DNA of 33,567 nucleotides from an uncultured Bacteroidota bacterium (lineage in GTDB: Bacteria > Bacteroidota > Bacteroidia > Chitinophagales > Saprospiraceae). Below are positions 162 through 6,109 of the stretch, piece by piece. Numbering within the stretch: position 1 is the stretch's first letter; every line of letters begins with the position of its first letter. Position numbers and translations under genes: made by a program. Below the pieces are notes generated by a model that saw nothing but the letters and a program-made list of their open reading frames with translations, was not told where the DNA came from and did no database searches. Where the stretch lies: contig CALMBD010000058.1 in assembly GCA_937861115.1 (NCBI GenBank), positions 1-33,567 of the forward strand, in the 5' to 3' direction.

Positions 162-869
162 TCATTTGAATACTATTTTTGAATAACTGTGTTCCATTAT
201 GTTGTGCTTTGAAATTTCGTGCTGCAACACTAATTCGTAGAAAAAGGTATTCGTTTCTTCGATGAGGAAAAACACACAATTCCAATCCAAAAAATTTATA
301 GGCTTCGAAACCTCGAAATCAAAATTTTTTCCTTTGTATGAAATGCTTACAGATGGCTTGCAATGGAAACCACCATTATGAATTGTATTTCGAGAAAAGG
401 CATATATTTTTACCAACTCTTCATAGTCAATATTAACCCCTGCCTTTTGTATCAGTTTACATAACAAGTTCTTTATAGAGTTGTCGGCTACGTTAATTTT
501 CTCACCAATAAGCCTTGCACAAGTTTCAAGGTTTACAAAAAATTTTAAGAATAGTCCGCTTTTCATTTCTTCATCGAAATGAAACAACCTATCATTAATG
601 AATTTATGTTTCTCTTCATCGGTGTTATACTTTTGCTTATTCCATAAGTCAAGAGTTGGAAAAAACTCTTTTCGGGCTAAGGTTATCAAATAATAAGATT
701 GCAATATTTCACGATTAAACACAAAATATAATACTCTTGTATCTTTTTTTTCGTCCCAACTATTGCTGTTGACTAATGCCGAAATGTAATTAGTATTCAA
801 CTTGCTTAATTGAGCAAGCCTTTTTTGATGTTCTTCAATTAAATTTTGTGTTAAGGATATATTATACAT
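162..869 (-). CDS. Small HEPN-like hypothetical protein
   Basis: A 235-residue protein of unknown function. It is soluble, probably mostly alpha-helical, with no signal peptide or membrane segment. The sequence RNTIHNGG at residues 160-167 (Arg160, His164) resembles the RN..H motif of HEPN-superfamily proteins, many of which are RNases in toxin-antitoxin, abortive-infection and CRISPR-linked systems. Spacing here is Rx3H rather than the commoner Rx4-6H, so catalytic activity is uncertain. It starts 9 bases after the stop of the PLD-Hsp70 gene, so the two are probably translated from one transcript and may work together, perhaps as partner effector or antitoxin; that is inference. Codon and base composition are AT-rich like the other three island genes and unlike the rest of the window. 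No specific family was recognised from the sequence alone. Confidence 0.75.
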   Translation of the reverse strand: MYNISLTQNLIEEHQKRLAQLSKLNTNYISALVNSNSWDEKKDTRVLYFVFNREILQSYYLITLARKEFFPTLDLWNKQKYNTDEEKHKFINDRLFHFDEEMKSGLFLKFFVNLETCARLIGEKINVADNSIKNLLCKLIQKAGVNIDYEELVKIYAFSRNTIHNGGFHCKPSVSISYKGKNFDFEVSKPINFLDWNCVFFLIEETNTFFYELVLQHEISKHNIMEHSYSKIVFK

Positions 870-878
870 GATTTTGAA

Positions 879-1880
879 TTAAAAAACAAGTTGTCCTACT
901 AAATAAGTTGCTGAAATTTCACTTCCCGTATCAATACTTTTTGCTCTTACGGTTAAAAGACCATTCTTATCAAGAGTAAAATGAACACTAATTCCTGATT
1001 GTCCTGCTAACTTTGGTGGTAAGTCTGCTATCAAGAATTTACCAATATTATGATTATAAGAGCAATAGTCATGTTCGCCTTTAAAAGTTTCTATACTAAT
1101 TGACGTTTGATTGTCAACAGTGGTATAGTAGTTGCCAAAATTTGAATATGGAACAACTATTCCTTTATTGATGAGTATTGAAAATCTACCGTCAATACCG
1201 TCAATTCTAGATTTTATTCCGAGTGCAGTTGTAGTTTTCTTTATTATTTCAACTTGACTAATTCTGTGGTATTCAGTTGATAAAAATGTGTTCGTCGGTA
1301 ATACTCTGGTTGCTGCCTCAAAAAATACTTTATTGTTCTCTTGTTTACCATGATAGTATAAATCAAATGCAAGATAATTTTTTGTTGAAAAAATATCAAA
1401 CATAGACAATTCTTCAAATTTCCTTTTTATTGCAAAAGTTGATTTGTTCAAACTTTGGCATAATTTTTCAAATTCAGTTTTGAATTGCTGTACTAAAAAT
1501 GGATGATTTTGAAATAATACTATATTCTCAATATTCCTACTTTCGGCATAATATGTCCAATTGTATGAACCATTTATCAAAACTTGATTGTCAATTATGC
1601 AAAATTTATGATGCATCGGATTATCTGCATTTCCGTAATACAGATTTCCACCAAGATTGATCAACTCTTGAAAGTTCAAACCCCAATCCCCATTATTTAT
1701 AAAATCATCTATTACTATCACGGAAACATTAACCCCTTGCCGCCTCTTTTGACACAATTTCTCAAAGAGATGAAAATTCGTAAACCAAGCGACTGCTATT
1801 TTTATATCAAATTTTGCATTCTCTAATTGGTCTAAAACAACCTGTCGTATTCCTGAAAAGTAGGCAGTTGAGGTATCCAT
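879..1880 (-). CDS. PLD-family (HKD) protein fused to Hsp70 substrate-binding domain
   Basis: A 333-residue protein counted from ATG at 1880. The open frame runs to 2018, but that part overlaps a hairpin and the end of the previous gene and encodes a low-quality extension, so the internal Met is preferred. Residues about 1-140 form one phospholipase D-like domain: H90-x-K92-x4-D97 (HHKFCIID) followed by GSYNWT, as in PLDc_2-type nucleases such as Nuc or the mitochondrial family. A single HKD implies homodimerisation for activity. After a linker, residues about 235-333 match the beta-sandwich substrate-binding domain of DnaK: IVVPYS, the TTVDNQTSISI stretch, FKGEH, a glycine-containing GKF strand, LPP, VHFTLDKNGLLTVRAK and TGSE appear in the Hsp70 order. 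There is no Hsp70 ATPase domain. The predicted role, a nuclease guided by a peptide- or misfolded-protein-binding domain, is inference. It probably forms an operon with the HEPN-like gene 9 bases downstream. Confidence 0.85.
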   Translation of the reverse strand: MDTSTAYFSGIRQVVLDQLENAKFDIKIAVAWFTNFHLFEKLCQKRRQGVNVSVIVIDDFINNGDWGLNFQELINLGGNLYYGNADNPMHHKFCIIDNQVLINGSYNWTYYAESRNIENIVLFQNHPFLVQQFKTEFEKLCQSLNKSTFAIKRKFEELSMFDIFSTKNYLAFDLYYHGKQENNKVFFEAATRVLPTNTFLSTEYHRISQVEIIKKTTTALGIKSRIDGIDGRFSILINKGIVVPYSNFGNYYTTVDNQTSISIETFKGEHDYCSYNHNIGKFLIADLPPKLAGQSGISVHFTLDKNGLLTVRAKSIDTGSEISATYLVGQLVF

Positions 1881-1989: not shown

Positions 1990-2724
1990 TCACAGTTTAT
2001 AAAATACTGATTTGTCAAGTTGTCGATATAGGAATGAAATAAGGCTAAGAATATCTAAGCAGTCTTGCTTGTCGATTGGCCAAGTTATGGCAGGCTCATG
2101 AGCTGTAGGATTTCTAATTGCACTCATTAGTCCACCAGAAATAAATTTAATGCCGTCTTGAAAGTCTTTGTCGGTTTGAGTCTGACAGGCAGTCACTTTT
2201 AATACACCGTTGTCGCAACCCCAAACATTCAGCATTAGGGGTTGCCCGTCTTTGTCACTTTGAGATTTAGTTTTTACGTCTTTATTATACGCCTTAGCAC
2301 TTTCAAAAACTGCGTGAAAAAAATTACTTTGCAAGAATAGTTTTTGCGAATGTTTAACCACTTCTGAATGAAAATTACGTTTCAAAAATTCGTCAAGATT
2401 GTCTTTATATAAAAGGTTATAAGGGCAACCATTTTTTTCTAAAAATTCAATGGTCTGTTTTTTGTGGTCTTGAGGTGTCAATTCCAAGCAAAAACCAATA
2501 AGTCTTTTTGTTCTTTCTGTACTGTCTAAACGTGTCTTGGCAAGAGAGAGCACCCAGTCATAAAGCGTTTTGGCTCTTACAGAAGTAATCGAAGCGTTTG
2601 GAAAGATCTCTTTACTAACCCTTAAAATGGATTGTCCTATTCGGTCAATTTCGTTAACAGAAGTTGAGTATTTTAAAGCATCTCCAATTTGTGTTGCAAT
2701 ATGTCGGTAGTTTATTTCTTGCAT
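1990..2724 (-). CDS. TIGR02391-type (Ymh) HEPN-family protein
   Basis: A 244-residue soluble protein. The C-terminal third, GLMSAIRNPTAHEP followed by a helical segment DCLDILSLISFLYRQLD (about residues 198-238), is characteristic of the TIGR02391 (hypothetical Ymh) family, a HEPN-fold group often found in mobile or restriction/defence neighbourhoods. R204, N205 and H209 form a standard Rx4H HEPN motif, so RNase activity is possible. The N-terminal part is helical and less conserved. It is AT-rich like its neighbours and is bracketed by hairpins at 1915-1972 and 2748-2819, which makes it look like an independent cassette rather than a tightly coupled operon gene. No membrane segment or signal peptide is visible. 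The family assignment is fairly secure; the biological role is not known from sequence. Confidence 0.82.
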   Translation of the reverse strand: MQEINYRHIATQIGDALKYSTSVNEIDRIGQSILRVSKEIFPNASITSVRAKTLYDWVLSLAKTRLDSTERTKRLIGFCLELTPQDHKKQTIEFLEKNGCPYNLLYKDNLDEFLKRNFHSEVVKHSQKLFLQSNFFHAVFESAKAYNKDVKTKSQSDKDGQPLMLNVWGCDNGVLKVTACQTQTDKDFQDGIKFISGGLMSAIRNPTAHEPAITWPIDKQDCLDILSLISFLYRQLDKSVFYKL

Positions 2725-2819: not shown

Positions 2820-4123
2820 GGCAGCGATAATTCTATAAATCATCAAGTTCCTTTTTAAGTTTTTCTTTTATAGTATTCGTCGGCATTTTGTCAACTACTT
2901 TTGTTGTCAAAGATTTTAGCCTCTGATAACTATCTTTCAAGTATTCTTCGGCTGGCGTTTCAATACCGTGCAAGAGATAATTTCTAATTTGTCTTAATTG
3001 TCTTAGTTCATCTGCTTCTTTTAAAGTCAGAATTTGTTTTTCTTTAAGAATTTTAAAATCAGGGATTAGATACTTGTTTGGACGAATTTGCTCGTCTTTA
3101 AGTATTTCTCTAACCGCTTTTTCTAGTATTACCCAACAACGAACAAATGATTCAAATCCAGATGCTTTCTTTTCGGATATATGAAGGTTCTTAAAGTAGC
3201 TCTTAAGGTTGATTTTGTCATTATCATAAAATTCAACTAAGAGCATGTTTAAAAGTTGATCGGTTACAGATTCGGGCAGGTCTACATTTACCTTTTTGAT
3301 ATAATTATAAAATTCATTTACATCTAACTTTTTTATTGTATTCAAGTAGTTGTTGAGTAAGTATGTATCACCAAGTTTTACTTTGTTTAAATAGTCTTTG
3401 TTGATGTTGCTTAAAAGAAAGTTCGTTAGCTCGTACTTATCCTTAATTTCATTTTGCTTTTTAGTTCTTTCTGCCATTGCTGATTGAAGTCTTTCAAGTG
3501 CAATTTCTCCACTTAAAACCAAACCATTTATCTCATCAAGGATTGCTAGTTCTTCTTTTGAAAGATTGCCCGAAAAAGGTTTATAGACTAAGTCATGTTC
3601 AACTTCTGACCAAGCGTGCATAAGTACGGACGCTACTTGTATTTCTGCAAGGGTGTCAAAATACCTTTTTGTAGAAGTTTCTTCCTTTAGTTTTACTCTG
3701 TAATGTGTCGCCCAATAACCTGAAAAACGCTTTTCATATTTAGGTGTGTATGCTTCATTTGGAAATGTTTTTGTCTTGATAACTTTGAAAAGTTCATTTA
3801 TTACTTCGTCAATTATTTCTCTCTCAGATGGAAAGTAAAGTGAAACACGAATACCTGCTAAGTCAACAATATCGTCATAAATTTCGCCTATAGTTTGGTA
3901 TTTTTTATCTTCATTCCGCTTAATCAACTTGTCTTTAAGTCGGTCAGGTCGCTTAGCACGATGAGTCACAATGGCTTTTATGCCTAGATTGAAAAGCTGG
4001 TCTTCAATCTTGGATGCAACTATCTGGGATAACTTTTGATAAAAGTCAAACTCCTTGTTGTATTGTCTTATGAAGTCGTCAATCACTTTCATTGTTATGC
4101 CTTTATATTATTACTGCCAACTA
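2815..4123. repeat. 10-base inverted repeats bracketing the RelA/SpoT gene
   Basis: TAGTTGGCAG at 2815-2824 and its exact reverse complement CTGCCAACTA at 4114-4123 flank the gene, lying 8 and 21 bases outside its stop and start. The left copy overlaps the end of the hairpin at 2748-2819, and the right copy sits 3 bases from the hairpin at 4127-4179. The arrangement suggests ends of an exchangeable cassette, but no transposase or target duplication is visible. Confidence 0.45.
2833..4092 (-). CDS. RelA/SpoT-domain nucleotidyltransferase with C-terminal HEPN-like motif
   Basis: A 419-residue protein. Residues about 20-175 show a RelA/SpoT synthetase domain: THRAKRPDRLKDKL (43-56), IYDDIVDLAGIRV (71-83), GYWATHYRV (125-133) and EIQVASVLMHAWSEVEH (150-166), which correspond in order to the substrate-binding and catalytic motifs of small alarmone synthetases. 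No HD hydrolase, TGS or ACT domain is present. A long helical region follows, and near the C-terminus RQIRNYLLHG contains R370, N371 and H375, a HEPN-type Rx4H motif. Relatives make (p)ppGpp, or, as toxic small alarmone synthetases and CapRel-type defence proteins, modify nucleotides or tRNA; which applies here cannot be told from sequence. The gene is AT-rich and is bounded by 10-base perfect inverted repeats at 2815-2824 and 4114-4123, suggesting it moves as a unit. Confidence 0.85.
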   Translation of the reverse strand: MKVIDDFIRQYNKEFDFYQKLSQIVASKIEDQLFNLGIKAIVTHRAKRPDRLKDKLIKRNEDKKYQTIGEIYDDIVDLAGIRVSLYFPSEREIIDEVINELFKVIKTKTFPNEAYTPKYEKRFSGYWATHYRVKLKEETSTKRYFDTLAEIQVASVLMHAWSEVEHDLVYKPFSGNLSKEELAILDEINGLVLSGEIALERLQSAMAERTKKQNEIKDKYELTNFLLSNINKDYLNKVKLGDTYLLNNYLNTIKKLDVNEFYNYIKKVNVDLPESVTDQLLNMLLVEFYDNDKINLKSYFKNLHISEKKASGFESFVRCWVILEKAVREILKDEQIRPNKYLIPDFKILKEKQILTLKEADELRQLRQIRNYLLHGIETPAEEYLKDSYQRLKSLTTKVVDKMPTNTIKEKLKKELDDL

Positions 4124-4374: not shown

Positions 4375-4478
4375 CCTGGCCTTTTTCATAATCCCGGTGC
4401 AGGTTGGGCGGCCTTGATAACATCGCCGGGCAGTTCACGTACGCAGCCCCGGTACCTGAGGATATCCCACTCATGCAA

Positions 4479-6083
4479 TTACCAGAACACCGTATACAAA
4501 GCCGTCAATATCCCGCAAATGATCACGCCGCCCACAATAAAGGACGGCTCCACCCGGAACAGTTTGACGTCGATCTCGATGGAGGTGTCTTCCTTGTTCC
4601 GCGACAGCGACATGACGACCATCAGCCCTACGATCAGGACAAATACCCACCCCAGCCGGTCGAGGAACGGGATTTCCGGCGCCAGGAACTTGAACGCAGC
4701 CGACAGCGGTATGGTCAGCAGCGCAGCGGCAAGCGCCGCTCCCGACGTCGTGCGCCGCCAGAACATGCCCAGCAGGAAAATGGCGAAGGCGCCCGGCGTG
4801 ATGAAACTCATGTATTCCTGGATGAACTGGTAGGTCTGCTCCAGCGAGCGCAGTTGCGGCGCGACCATGATGGCGATCAGCATCGAAACGGCGATCGCGA
4901 TCTTGCCCACGCGCACGAGTTTGGCGTCCGAGGCTTCTTTGTCGAAATACCTTTTATATATGTCCAGGCTGAAAATGGTGGCGACGCTGTTGGCCTTACC
5001 CGCGAGCGAAGCCACTACCGCTGCGATCAGCGCGGCAAACGCCAGACCCTTCATGCCCATCGGCAGCAGGTTGAGCAGCGTCGGGTAGGCAAAATCGGGC
5101 TTTACCACGCCGTTGGCGTCCAGCATTTCCTGCTGAAACATCCCCTCCGAATACAATACGAAGGCGGAAATGCCCGGCAGCACCACGATCACCGGGATCA
5201 GGAGTTTCAGAAACGCGGCGAAAAGGATGCCCTTGCGCGCAGTAGGCAGGTCGGCGCCCAGGGCGCGCTGGATGATGTACTGGTTGCAACCCCAATAGTT
5301 CAGGTTGTTGATCCACATGGCCCCGATCAGCACGGTCAGGCCGGGCAGGTCCTTGTAATACTGGTGACCTTTCGGCAGGATCATGTGAAAATGCGAAGGC
5401 GCTTTTTCGCGGATCAGCGCCAGTCCGGCAAACACACCTTCCGATCCGTAATGCTCGGCCACCATGCTCAGGGCCAGGTACACCGTTGCCAGGCCGCCCA
5501 GCACCAGCACCGCCACCTGCACGACATCGGTATAGCCGATCACCCGCATGCCGCCGATGGTGATGAATATGGCGAACAGGGCAAGTCCCAGTATGGCCGC
5601 ATAGAAATCCAGACCGGTGGTCAGTTCCAGCGCCAGCGCGCCGAGGTAAAGGATGGAGGTCAGGTTGACGAACACGTAGGCCAGCAGCCAGAAAACGGCC
5701 ATCAGGGTGGCCACCAGCGGACTGTAACGGCTGCGCAAAAACTGCGGCATCGTGTATATCTTGTTTTTGAGGTACACCGGAACAAAAAAAACGGCCACGA
5801 CCAGCAGCGTGGCTGCCGACATCCATTCATAGGTGGAAATGGCCAGGCCGATGGCAAAACCGGAGCCCGACATGCCGATAAAGTGTTCGGCAGAGATATT
5901 GGAAGCGATCAGGGAGGCGCCGATGGCCCAATAGGTGAGCGAGCCTTCCGCCAGAAAATAATCCCCTGCGGTGTTGTCGCCCGTCTGTTTGCGGCGGTAG
6001 ATCCAGTAGCCGTATGCCGAAACGGCAATAAAATAAAGGGCGAAGACGAGGTAGTCTAACAGGTGGAGACCGGTGGTGTGCAT
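4479..6083 (-). CDS. Sodium/sugar symporter (SSS family, vSGLT-like)
   Basis: A 534-residue inner-membrane protein with about 14 hydrophobic segments, as in the sodium:solute symporter family. It is expected to import a sugar or similar solute using the sodium gradient. ASNISAEHFIGMSGSG (60-75) corresponds to the broken first core helix, and INNLNYWGCNQYIIQRALG (258-276) to the galactose-binding and gate region of Vibrio vSGLT, whose gate tyrosine lies in the same NYWG context. The vSGLT glutamine next to the glutamate in the first motif is replaced by His67, which may shift substrate preference. The length is typical. The 98-base gap to the upstream gene contains a weak minus-10-like box (TATACTTG, 6107-6114) and a perfect 12-base palindrome, suggesting its own regulated promoter. 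The substrate is unknown. Confidence 0.9.
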   Translation of the reverse strand: MHTTGLHLLDYLVFALYFIAVSAYGYWIYRRKQTGDNTAGDYFLAEGSLTYWAIGASLIASNISAEHFIGMSGSGFAIGLAISTYEWMSAATLLVVAVFFVPVYLKNKIYTMPQFLRSRYSPLVATLMAVFWLLAYVFVNLTSILYLGALALELTTGLDFYAAILGLALFAIFITIGGMRVIGYTDVVQVAVLVLGGLATVYLALSMVAEHYGSEGVFAGLALIREKAPSHFHMILPKGHQYYKDLPGLTVLIGAMWINNLNYWGCNQYIIQRALGADLPTARKGILFAAFLKLLIPVIVVLPGISAFVLYSEGMFQQEMLDANGVVKPDFAYPTLLNLLPMGMKGLAFAALIAAVVASLAGKANSVATIFSLDIYKRYFDKEASDAKLVRVGKIAIAVSMLIAIMVAPQLRSLEQTYQFIQEYMSFITPGAFAIFLLGMFWRRTTSGAALAAALLTIPLSAAFKFLAPEIPFLDRLGWVFVLIVGLMVVMSLSRNKEDTSIEIDVKLFRVEPSFIVGGVIICGILTALYTVFW

Positions 6084-6097
6084 AGGATGTCAGGAAT

Positions 6098-6109
6098 TTG
6101 TCCGGACAA
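6098..6109. promoter_or_regulatory. 12-base perfect palindrome upstream of the symporter
   Basis: TTGTCCGGACAA lies 15-26 bases upstream of the symporter start and overlaps a weak TAnnTTTG-like box, TATACTTG (minus strand, 6107-6114). Its position at the expected transcription start makes it a candidate operator for a repressor. A regulator gene is not visible nearby. Confidence 0.35.

Follow-up and report, generated by a model that had tools for sequence, protein, structure and literature searches.

In passages of several papers, parts of Hsp70 or DnaJ, or phospholipase D (PLD) nucleases, are described in other roles (PMC11090510; PMC7159879; PMC3710099; PMC8195603). In CoCoNuT and related NxD-McrB systems, an Hsp70-like nucleotide-binding domain (NBD) and substrate-binding domain (SBD) are described together, either fused to McrB/McrC homologues or as CnuD (passages of PMC11090510), and GAP1-N2 GTPase conflict systems are described with HSP70, GrpE, and DnaJ fusions (passages of PMC7159879). 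The antiphage system bNACHT25 requires host DnaJ, and mutations breaking the DnaJ-DnaK interaction break its defence; its authors suggested that other antiphage systems may guard chaperones (passages of PMC12169576). Here, a stretch of 33,567 nucleotides (hereafter the window; contig CALMBD010000058.1 of assembly GCA_937861115.1) from an uncultured member of the Saprospiraceae (Bacteroidota) was analysed with regard to a gene at positions 879 to 1880, in which a PLD nuclease domain is fused to an Hsp70 SBD without its ATPase. This architecture is almost certainly real, recurrent, and unusual, and from it we infer a biological function.

The fusion shares some features with each of these systems. 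CoCoNuT has Hsp70 parts in predicted restriction systems and PLD effectors in type III-C, and the passages concerned describe no PLD-SBD fusion, unlike the window protein (PMC11090510). GAP1-N2 systems likewise place Hsp70-system parts in a predicted conflict system; they are centred on a GTPase, with HSP70 genes, and the term PLD is absent from that text (PMC7159879). The nearest experimental precedent is bNACHT25, whose antiphage sensing relies on DnaJ/DnaK; it takes host DnaJ in trans, whereas the fusion would have the chaperone part built in (passages of PMC12169576). Among the titles and opening abstract lines listed from the open-access literature (supplements lie outside this scope, as do most subscription papers and preprints), no description of a PLD-SBD or PLD-J-domain protein was recognised, and the main text of PMC13092281 contained none of the terms sought.

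The fusion gene and its parts are located as follows:

879..1880, minus strand: PLD-SBD fusion gene, with ATG at 1880 and stop codon at 879-881; 333 amino acids plus stop (translation)
1461..1835, minus strand: PLD/HKD nuclease domain, residues 16-140 (PLDc_2 E 1.8e-23; Nuc fold, TM(target) 0.87)
1590..1613, minus strand: HKD motif HxK(x)4D, HHKFCIID, residues 90-97 (H90, K92, and D97 invariant in the 64 proteins of sample A2, defined below)
1557..1571, minus strand: GSxN motif GSYNW, residues 104-108 (G104, S105, and N107 invariant in the same 64 proteins)
1236..1454, minus strand: middle region, residues 143-215 (helices 163-181, 184-193, and 198-207 in the AlphaFold2 model)
915..1205, minus strand: Hsp70 substrate-binding beta-domain, residues 226-322 (HSP70 E 3.4e-15; 1.8 Å to 3dqg_D)

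A first-pass annotation of the window, made from the letters and the open reading frames (ORFs), had proposed at this place an ORF with a single HKD motif followed by a beta-domain resembling the DnaK SBD. Translation confirmed the ORF on the minus strand, with all the named motifs present (HHKFCIID, GSYNWT, VDNQT, GEH, GKF, LPP, FTLDKNGLLTVRAK, and TGSE), and the start methionine has an equivalent in seven homologues of alignment A5, where it lies two residues nearer to an AYF-type motif. The Pfam matches to PLDc_2 and HSP70 each exceeded the curated cut-off, which upheld both domain claims, and one PLD domain was found per chain; its HKD motif we take to be catalytic, following PLD enzymology. 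The HSP70 match spans profile positions 396-492 of 599, i.e., the beta part of the SBD only, and the lack of the ATPase was thus borne out: the Hsp70 NBD is absent and the N-terminus is occupied by the PLD domain (Pfam). Compared with DnaK/Hsp70 chaperones, with which the substrate-binding beta-domain is shared, the fusion has also lost the LLLDVTP-type interdomain linker, whose residues are substituted, and the helical lid, since in the AlphaFold2 model the chain stops six residues past the last strand (321-327); the LGI that opens the first SBD strand is retained. NCBIfam models for DnaK and HscA matched residues 226-322 and NucT models matched the N-terminus, all well under their equivalog cut-offs, as expected of a fragment. 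Among the PDB sequence matches listed (60 of 78), DnaK/Hsp70 chains aligned to the SBD half, and Nuc and Zucchini/MitoPLD to the PLD half. The single HKD motif and the Nuc fold are common to Nuc, NucT, and MitoPLD-Zucchini; those solved proteins have no Hsp70 SBD, and the fusion adds a helical region and the SBD. Two further open frames in the window's own genome, 634 and 662 codons long, match the SBD, and the host cell therefore seems to retain normal Hsp70s.

The AlphaFold2 model of the monomer, built on a 30-row alignment (A4), had a mean predicted local distance difference test (pLDDT) score of 91.2 and a predicted template modelling (pTM) score of 0.66, the domains themselves being confident. 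Foldseek comparison of this model agreed with both assignments, retrieving Nuc 1byr (TM(target) 0.87, 2.2 Å), as well as NucT and FAM83, and, among Hsp70 peptide-binding domains, chain D of 3dqg (TM(target) 0.71, 1.8 Å). The claim that no named defence system has this architecture also held, in that no PADLOC-DB 2.0.0 model covers the whole fusion: there were 18 partial matches, none extending past residue 152. These concern, among others, DISARM DrmC and Dpd DpdK, which have a PLD domain within defence systems; the best match (2.5e-7) is partial, and the matches end ahead of the SBD. No DISARM or Dpd partner gene was detected by PADLOC among the three window neighbours scanned, and membership of either system was rejected.

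The initial scans of genome contigs and viral contigs, with the window protein alone as query, returned no relative. MT838246, a faecal scaffold of a phage collection and the only one of 22 records of that collection to cover 80% of the query, encodes a homologue that spans 98% of the query (identity 32%, E 3e-40) and carries both Pfam domains (HSP70 E 1.8e-7); this unverified scaffold appears bacterial. With a two-row alignment, 292 relatives were found in genome contigs, of which the best 80, ranked by likeness to the window protein, were kept, and none in viral contigs. A local SBD profile made from four Hsp70-type ORFs matched L014, L017, L018, L019, L020, and L023 beyond the window, and L110 (HSP70 E 5.6e-9) became the eighth protein with a significant SBD match, window included. 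In addition, the SBD profile of the fusions was matched by the C-termini of L027, from Phocaeicola barnesiae DSM 18169, and of L052, from a record of Prevotellaceae (hhalign probability 96% together, 93% and 88% alone), and both were counted as diverged members because this profile matched and DnaK did not. All nine further fusions are single ORFs with the same domain order; seven belong to Bacteroidota records, and one sits in a genome listed as 100% complete in 30 contigs. Neither outcome that the first-pass annotation had named as fatal to its proposal was found, namely halves always encoded by separate genes, or a C-terminal 100 residues without significant SBD match (E 3.4e-15).

The distribution of the fusion is rare and patchy, since a full-length match (E 1e-25 or better) was present in one other genome (G083) of the 394 other genomes in a phylum sample (395 with the window's own; up to five candidates scored per genome), and the relatives search, with 59 other genomes, yielded no such match. 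Matches occurred in 4,290 plasmid records, and in no record did a place cover 80% of the query. Two candidates were set aside: a Hymenobacter plasmid match (H1), whose PLD domain is divided over two short ORFs, and a Nocardia match (H2), which is a 635-codon Hsp70-type ORF and served only as an SBD reference. A search with an alignment of eight fusions revealed 13 PLD relatives in viral contigs, none with an SBD by the local profile; the sole HPD string among them precedes the PLD match and does not resemble a J-domain. By eye, five of these viral-contig proteins (L124, L125, L129, L130, and L133) seem to have another C-terminus in common, with a motif like AIANxxEYxEEPE...WIDMR.

The wider PLD family was examined in sample A2, which comprises 64 of 91 PLD proteins collected by that stage (the window protein, L014, nine from the genome search, and 53 of the 80 relatives kept); the 27 others were short, PLD-at-C-terminus, near-duplicate, or similar frames passed over by length. 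Pfam detected PLDc_2 in 64/64 of these proteins, DnaJ in 17, HSP70 in seven, TPR_2 in five, and ankyrin and LRR in one each, counts that are not a census and that include L012-type proteins with another C-terminus. The six residues H90, K92, D97, G104, S105, and N107 did not vary across the sample, and the PLD half is a constant chassis on which the C-terminus is exchanged; within A2, the Hsp70 system supplies two of the attachments that are most frequent among those recognised. For the J-domain, a profile built from 15 J regions, chosen by the HPD motif so that HPD is invariant there by construction, had DnaJ-type chains as its best matches among PDB sequences (E 3.3e-8 and weaker), in a list that also includes weak matches to designed helical proteins. 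Foldseek of a J-type model retrieved mainly PLD-family structures and no DnaJ chain among the first 50 matches listed; the J-domain assignment rests on Pfam and the profile search.

A tree of the PLD domain was made from 104 rows and 146 columns and left many forks unresolved. On it, the SBD label required at fewest 5 changes (9 rows), against a mean of 8.7 after shuffling, and a single clade of ten SBD rows was not rejected (approximately unbiased test, p 0.19), so that the SBD fusions are neither shown to have a single origin nor shown to lack one. One clade of 22 HPD-labelled rows was rejected (p 1.7e-6); since HPD labelling misses degenerate J-domains (HPN in L041, HED in L048) and the HPD of L030 may be due to chance, this rejection gives no count of J-domain gains. 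Eight PLD proteins from other genomes of the window's genus (L006-L013) have a different common C-terminus like IGIVQSxPQPFxGxxFSSFRAVQW; five of the eight, scanned singly, gave PLD-type Pfam matches only and nothing at the C-terminus. By eye, this C-terminus recalls an EVE/PUA-like fold.

Among the eight proteins of alignment A5, mean pairwise identity was highest in the PLD half (48%), lower in the SBD (26%), and lowest in the middle region (18%), and the lower conservation of the SBD relative to the PLD domain fits what a recognition module might show. Five fusions (window, L014, L017, L018, and L023) have four additional residues in the loop that follows the first SBD strand.

The neighbours of eight other fusions (L014, L017, L018, L019, L020, L023, L027, and L110) were listed descriptively, partly by eye and with each locus scanned in part, no enrichment being claimed. 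The proposed search for homologues with both domains and for their neighbours yielded further fusions, several of which adjoin defence-type or mobile-element genes, none in common with the window. In L019 (1195-6217) and L020 (3029-7983), the same row was observed: a reverse transcriptase (RT) and a HisKin-conflict domain, encoded by a single gene in L019 and by two genes in L020, then a gene about 200 codons long, an iREC/receiver gene, and the PLD-SBD gene last; TOTE conflict genes come next in L019. The arrangement resembles a defence system of two-component type that includes an RT. In L014, the neighbours are PDDEXK_13 and Mrr genes. In L027 (8004-11598), the diverged PLD-SBD gene and a SecA-like gene share a few bases if the latter begins at its first methionine, which puts a predicted nuclease next to a relative of the preprotein translocase; an E1-E2 ThiF gene also adjoins. 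Near L018, L023, and L110, PDDEXK_1, VapE-like, recombinase-like, or relaxase-like genes were noted, partly by eye. Neither an McrB-like GTPase nor McrC was detected among five window genes (Pfam) or among the neighbours scanned in L014, L018, L019, L020, L023, L027, and L110, and membership of CoCoNuT or type IV McrBC systems was rejected on this basis.

In the window, three genes flank or precede the fusion:

162..869, minus strand: downstream gene, 235 amino acids, starting 9 nucleotides past the fusion stop; possible operon partner
1990..2724, minus strand: upstream Ymh-family (TIGR02391) HEPN protein (Hypoth_Ymh E 8e-31; TIGR02391 E 3.2e-24; PD-Lambda-3_B E 1.1e-25)
2833..4092, minus strand: upstream RelA_SpoT protein with HepT/DUF4145-like C-terminus (RelA_SpoT E 5.6e-13; HepT-like E 8.6e-5, slightly under cut-off)

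The product of 162-869 had no Pfam, NCBIfam, or PADLOC match; it carries the motif RNTIHNGG, whose RNTIH suggests a HEPN protein. No homologue was found among the ORFs of the other fusion loci examined, none in plasmids, and, across 295 other genomes from the phylum sample, one match that was weak (E 6.6e-5), and the gene was rejected as an obligate partner on these grounds. The protein encoded at 2833-4092 could possibly be an alarmone-synthetase-HEPN toxin. Its C-terminus was also seen to carry RNYLLH.

These genes lie in a stretch of about 4.1 kb of low GC content: per kilobase, GC was 32-37% in the first 4 kb of the window and 48-59% beyond, and GC at third codon positions (GC3) was 0.23-0.34 in this stretch versus 0.79 in the next gene. 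In four genomes of the same genus, compared beside a homologous transporter gene, only positions 4476-6100 of the first 8 kb of the window aligned, and the low-GC stretch was not found beside that gene in 4/4 of these loci, with one side of the transporter compared; none of the three other genes of this stretch gave a match. The window genome is a draft of 348 contigs, and a misjoin is possible because the low-GC stretch begins at a contig end.

The fusion is tentatively read as a single-protein nuclease effector with a chaperone-derived domain for sensing or targeting by polypeptide binding, a reading that we favour while considering it plausible rather than probable. The PLD half would be an HKD phosphodiesterase, probably dimeric, that cuts nucleic acid, either DNA or RNA, as Nuc and Zucchini/MitoPLD both match. 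Single-HKD Nuc-type enzymes act as dimers, with two HKD motifs per active unit, so that each nuclease would present two SBDs. An SBD without ATPase and lid can bind peptide and cannot cycle, and the C-terminal beta-sandwich, not driven by ATP, would hold extended polypeptide on misfolded, over-produced, or phage-encoded protein. In the simplest mechanism, binding would either bring the nuclease to the places where phage protein is made, or free it from inhibition by shifting the helical middle region off the active site, and the outcome would be restriction of a phage or mobile element, or growth arrest. The J-domain relatives would reach the same kind of client by recruiting the cell's own DnaK. 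The first-pass annotation had likewise proposed a sensor of unfolded or phage protein; its interpretation as a whole is partly supported, and the sensor idea seems reasonable and better motivated now that relatives with the same PLD domain are seen to be fused to a J-domain, which also belongs to the Hsp70 system.

A wider proposal, which we regard as possible and still doubtful, is that of a family of proteostasis-sensing immune nucleases, in which a PLD chassis would have been given repeatedly either an ATPase-free SBD, which catches polypeptide, or a J-domain, which reads the clients of DnaK, and in which the flood of phage protein undergoing folding, rather than a phage nucleic acid or any one phage protein, would trigger or aim nucleic-acid cleavage. 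With the same reserve, such a family would be previously undescribed. If this were true, bacteria would have made infection sensors from the client-binding parts of the chaperone itself, the Hsp70 SBD would have a natural ATP-independent use, and the suggestion of chaperone guarding made by the bNACHT25 authors (passages of PMC12169576) would be directly testable in a single protein of 333 residues. Even without a role in defence, a PLD family that swaps SBD, J-domain, TPR, and other C-termini is a set of architectures that needs explanation.

The binding cleft bears on the sensor reading in both directions. Numbered as in E. coli DnaK, the cleft residues of the window protein are Y426, T429, I436, and I438, and with these the protein may still hold a hydrophobic peptide; positions 436/438 are hydrophobic also in L018 (M/I) and L017 (L/C). 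Several observations weigh against the sensor reading. The same two positions are polar or small in L019 and L020 (S/T) and in L110 (S/A), and position 436 is A in L023 (438 I) and L014 (438 C); judged by these sequences, some members probably bind another ligand or none, and "sensor of unfolded protein" might not apply to every member, given the polar or small pocket of three relatives. The C-termini of L027 and L052 do not match DnaK (probability 2%), and the pTM score means that the placement of the two halves relative to each other is not predicted. As regards gene context, the neighbour lists lack a matched control set and so show no enrichment, L017 has no obvious defence neighbour (by eye, first 60 residues per ORF), and no neighbour gene of the window was seen beside the other fusions examined.

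Some of these points lead to an alternative that is possible, if on the doubtful side, namely that the SBD persists solely for adaptor or oligomerisation purposes, as a module through which one fixed partner (an operon partner or an RT/kinase/receiver complex), and not unfolded clients, would control the nuclease. The polar or small pockets of L019, L020, and L110, the heavy divergence of the SBDs of L027 and L052, the RT, HisKin-conflict, and iREC/receiver genes that precede the fusion in both L019 and L020, and the few-base overlap with the SecA-like gene in L027 (if first-methionine start) all suit a fixed partner. They are countered by the hydrophobic pocket of the window protein, L018, and L017, by the lack of a partner common to the window locus and the other loci, and by the J-domains fused to the same PLD domain, which suggest a link with chaperones and not the capture of some random beta-sandwich. 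It is distinctly improbable that the SBD serves instead as an RNA-binding or ribosome-targeting module by which mRNA or nascent chains are reached by a PLD RNase specific for single strands. The PLD half does resemble Zucchini/MitoPLD as well, and the CoCoNuT authors considered low-ATPase Hsp70-like domains more suited to RNA binding than to protein remodelling; the DnaK RNA binding cited there, however, uses NBD and SBD together, and the NBD is absent in the fusion (passages of PMC11090510).

An ordinary housekeeping or stress nuclease unrelated to phage defence, e.g., one that clears nucleic acid from aggregates, is unlikely as well. J-domain and SBD modules would suit stress physiology, the genes around L017 are not defence-like by eye, and the viral-contig scans yielded no fusion; on the other hand, the patchy occurrence among the phylum-sample and relatives-search genomes, the low-GC stretch, and the mobile-element or restriction-type neighbours at several loci do not fit such a role. 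That the whole is an artefact (chimeric contig, pseudogene, or chance similarity) is extremely improbable: the draft state of the genome and the position of the low-GC stretch at a contig start would allow it, and it is opposed by the E-values, the fold matches, and the nine further single-ORF fusions, one of them (diverged) in Phocaeicola barnesiae DSM 18169 and one in the 30-contig genome listed as complete. For the fusion itself, a frame error or chance similarity is refuted by the same evidence.

Minor observations were made on other members of the PLD family. In seven of the 12 J-type loci viewed (L051, L056, L061, L066, L070, L028, and L031), the next gene opens with a loosely common helix-like motif, e.g., ITDKIL or LSITQKIL, which is possibly a docking tag. 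In these genes, a variable module follows the motif, in some cases vWA-like, WG-repeat-like, or Fib_succ_major-like by eye. In addition, a metagenome-assembled genome of Methanobrevibacter (L022, 200-2533) encodes a protein of 778 amino acids with a central PLD domain, a long coiled-coil-like stretch, and a C-terminus that is TerD/DUF2135-like by eye.
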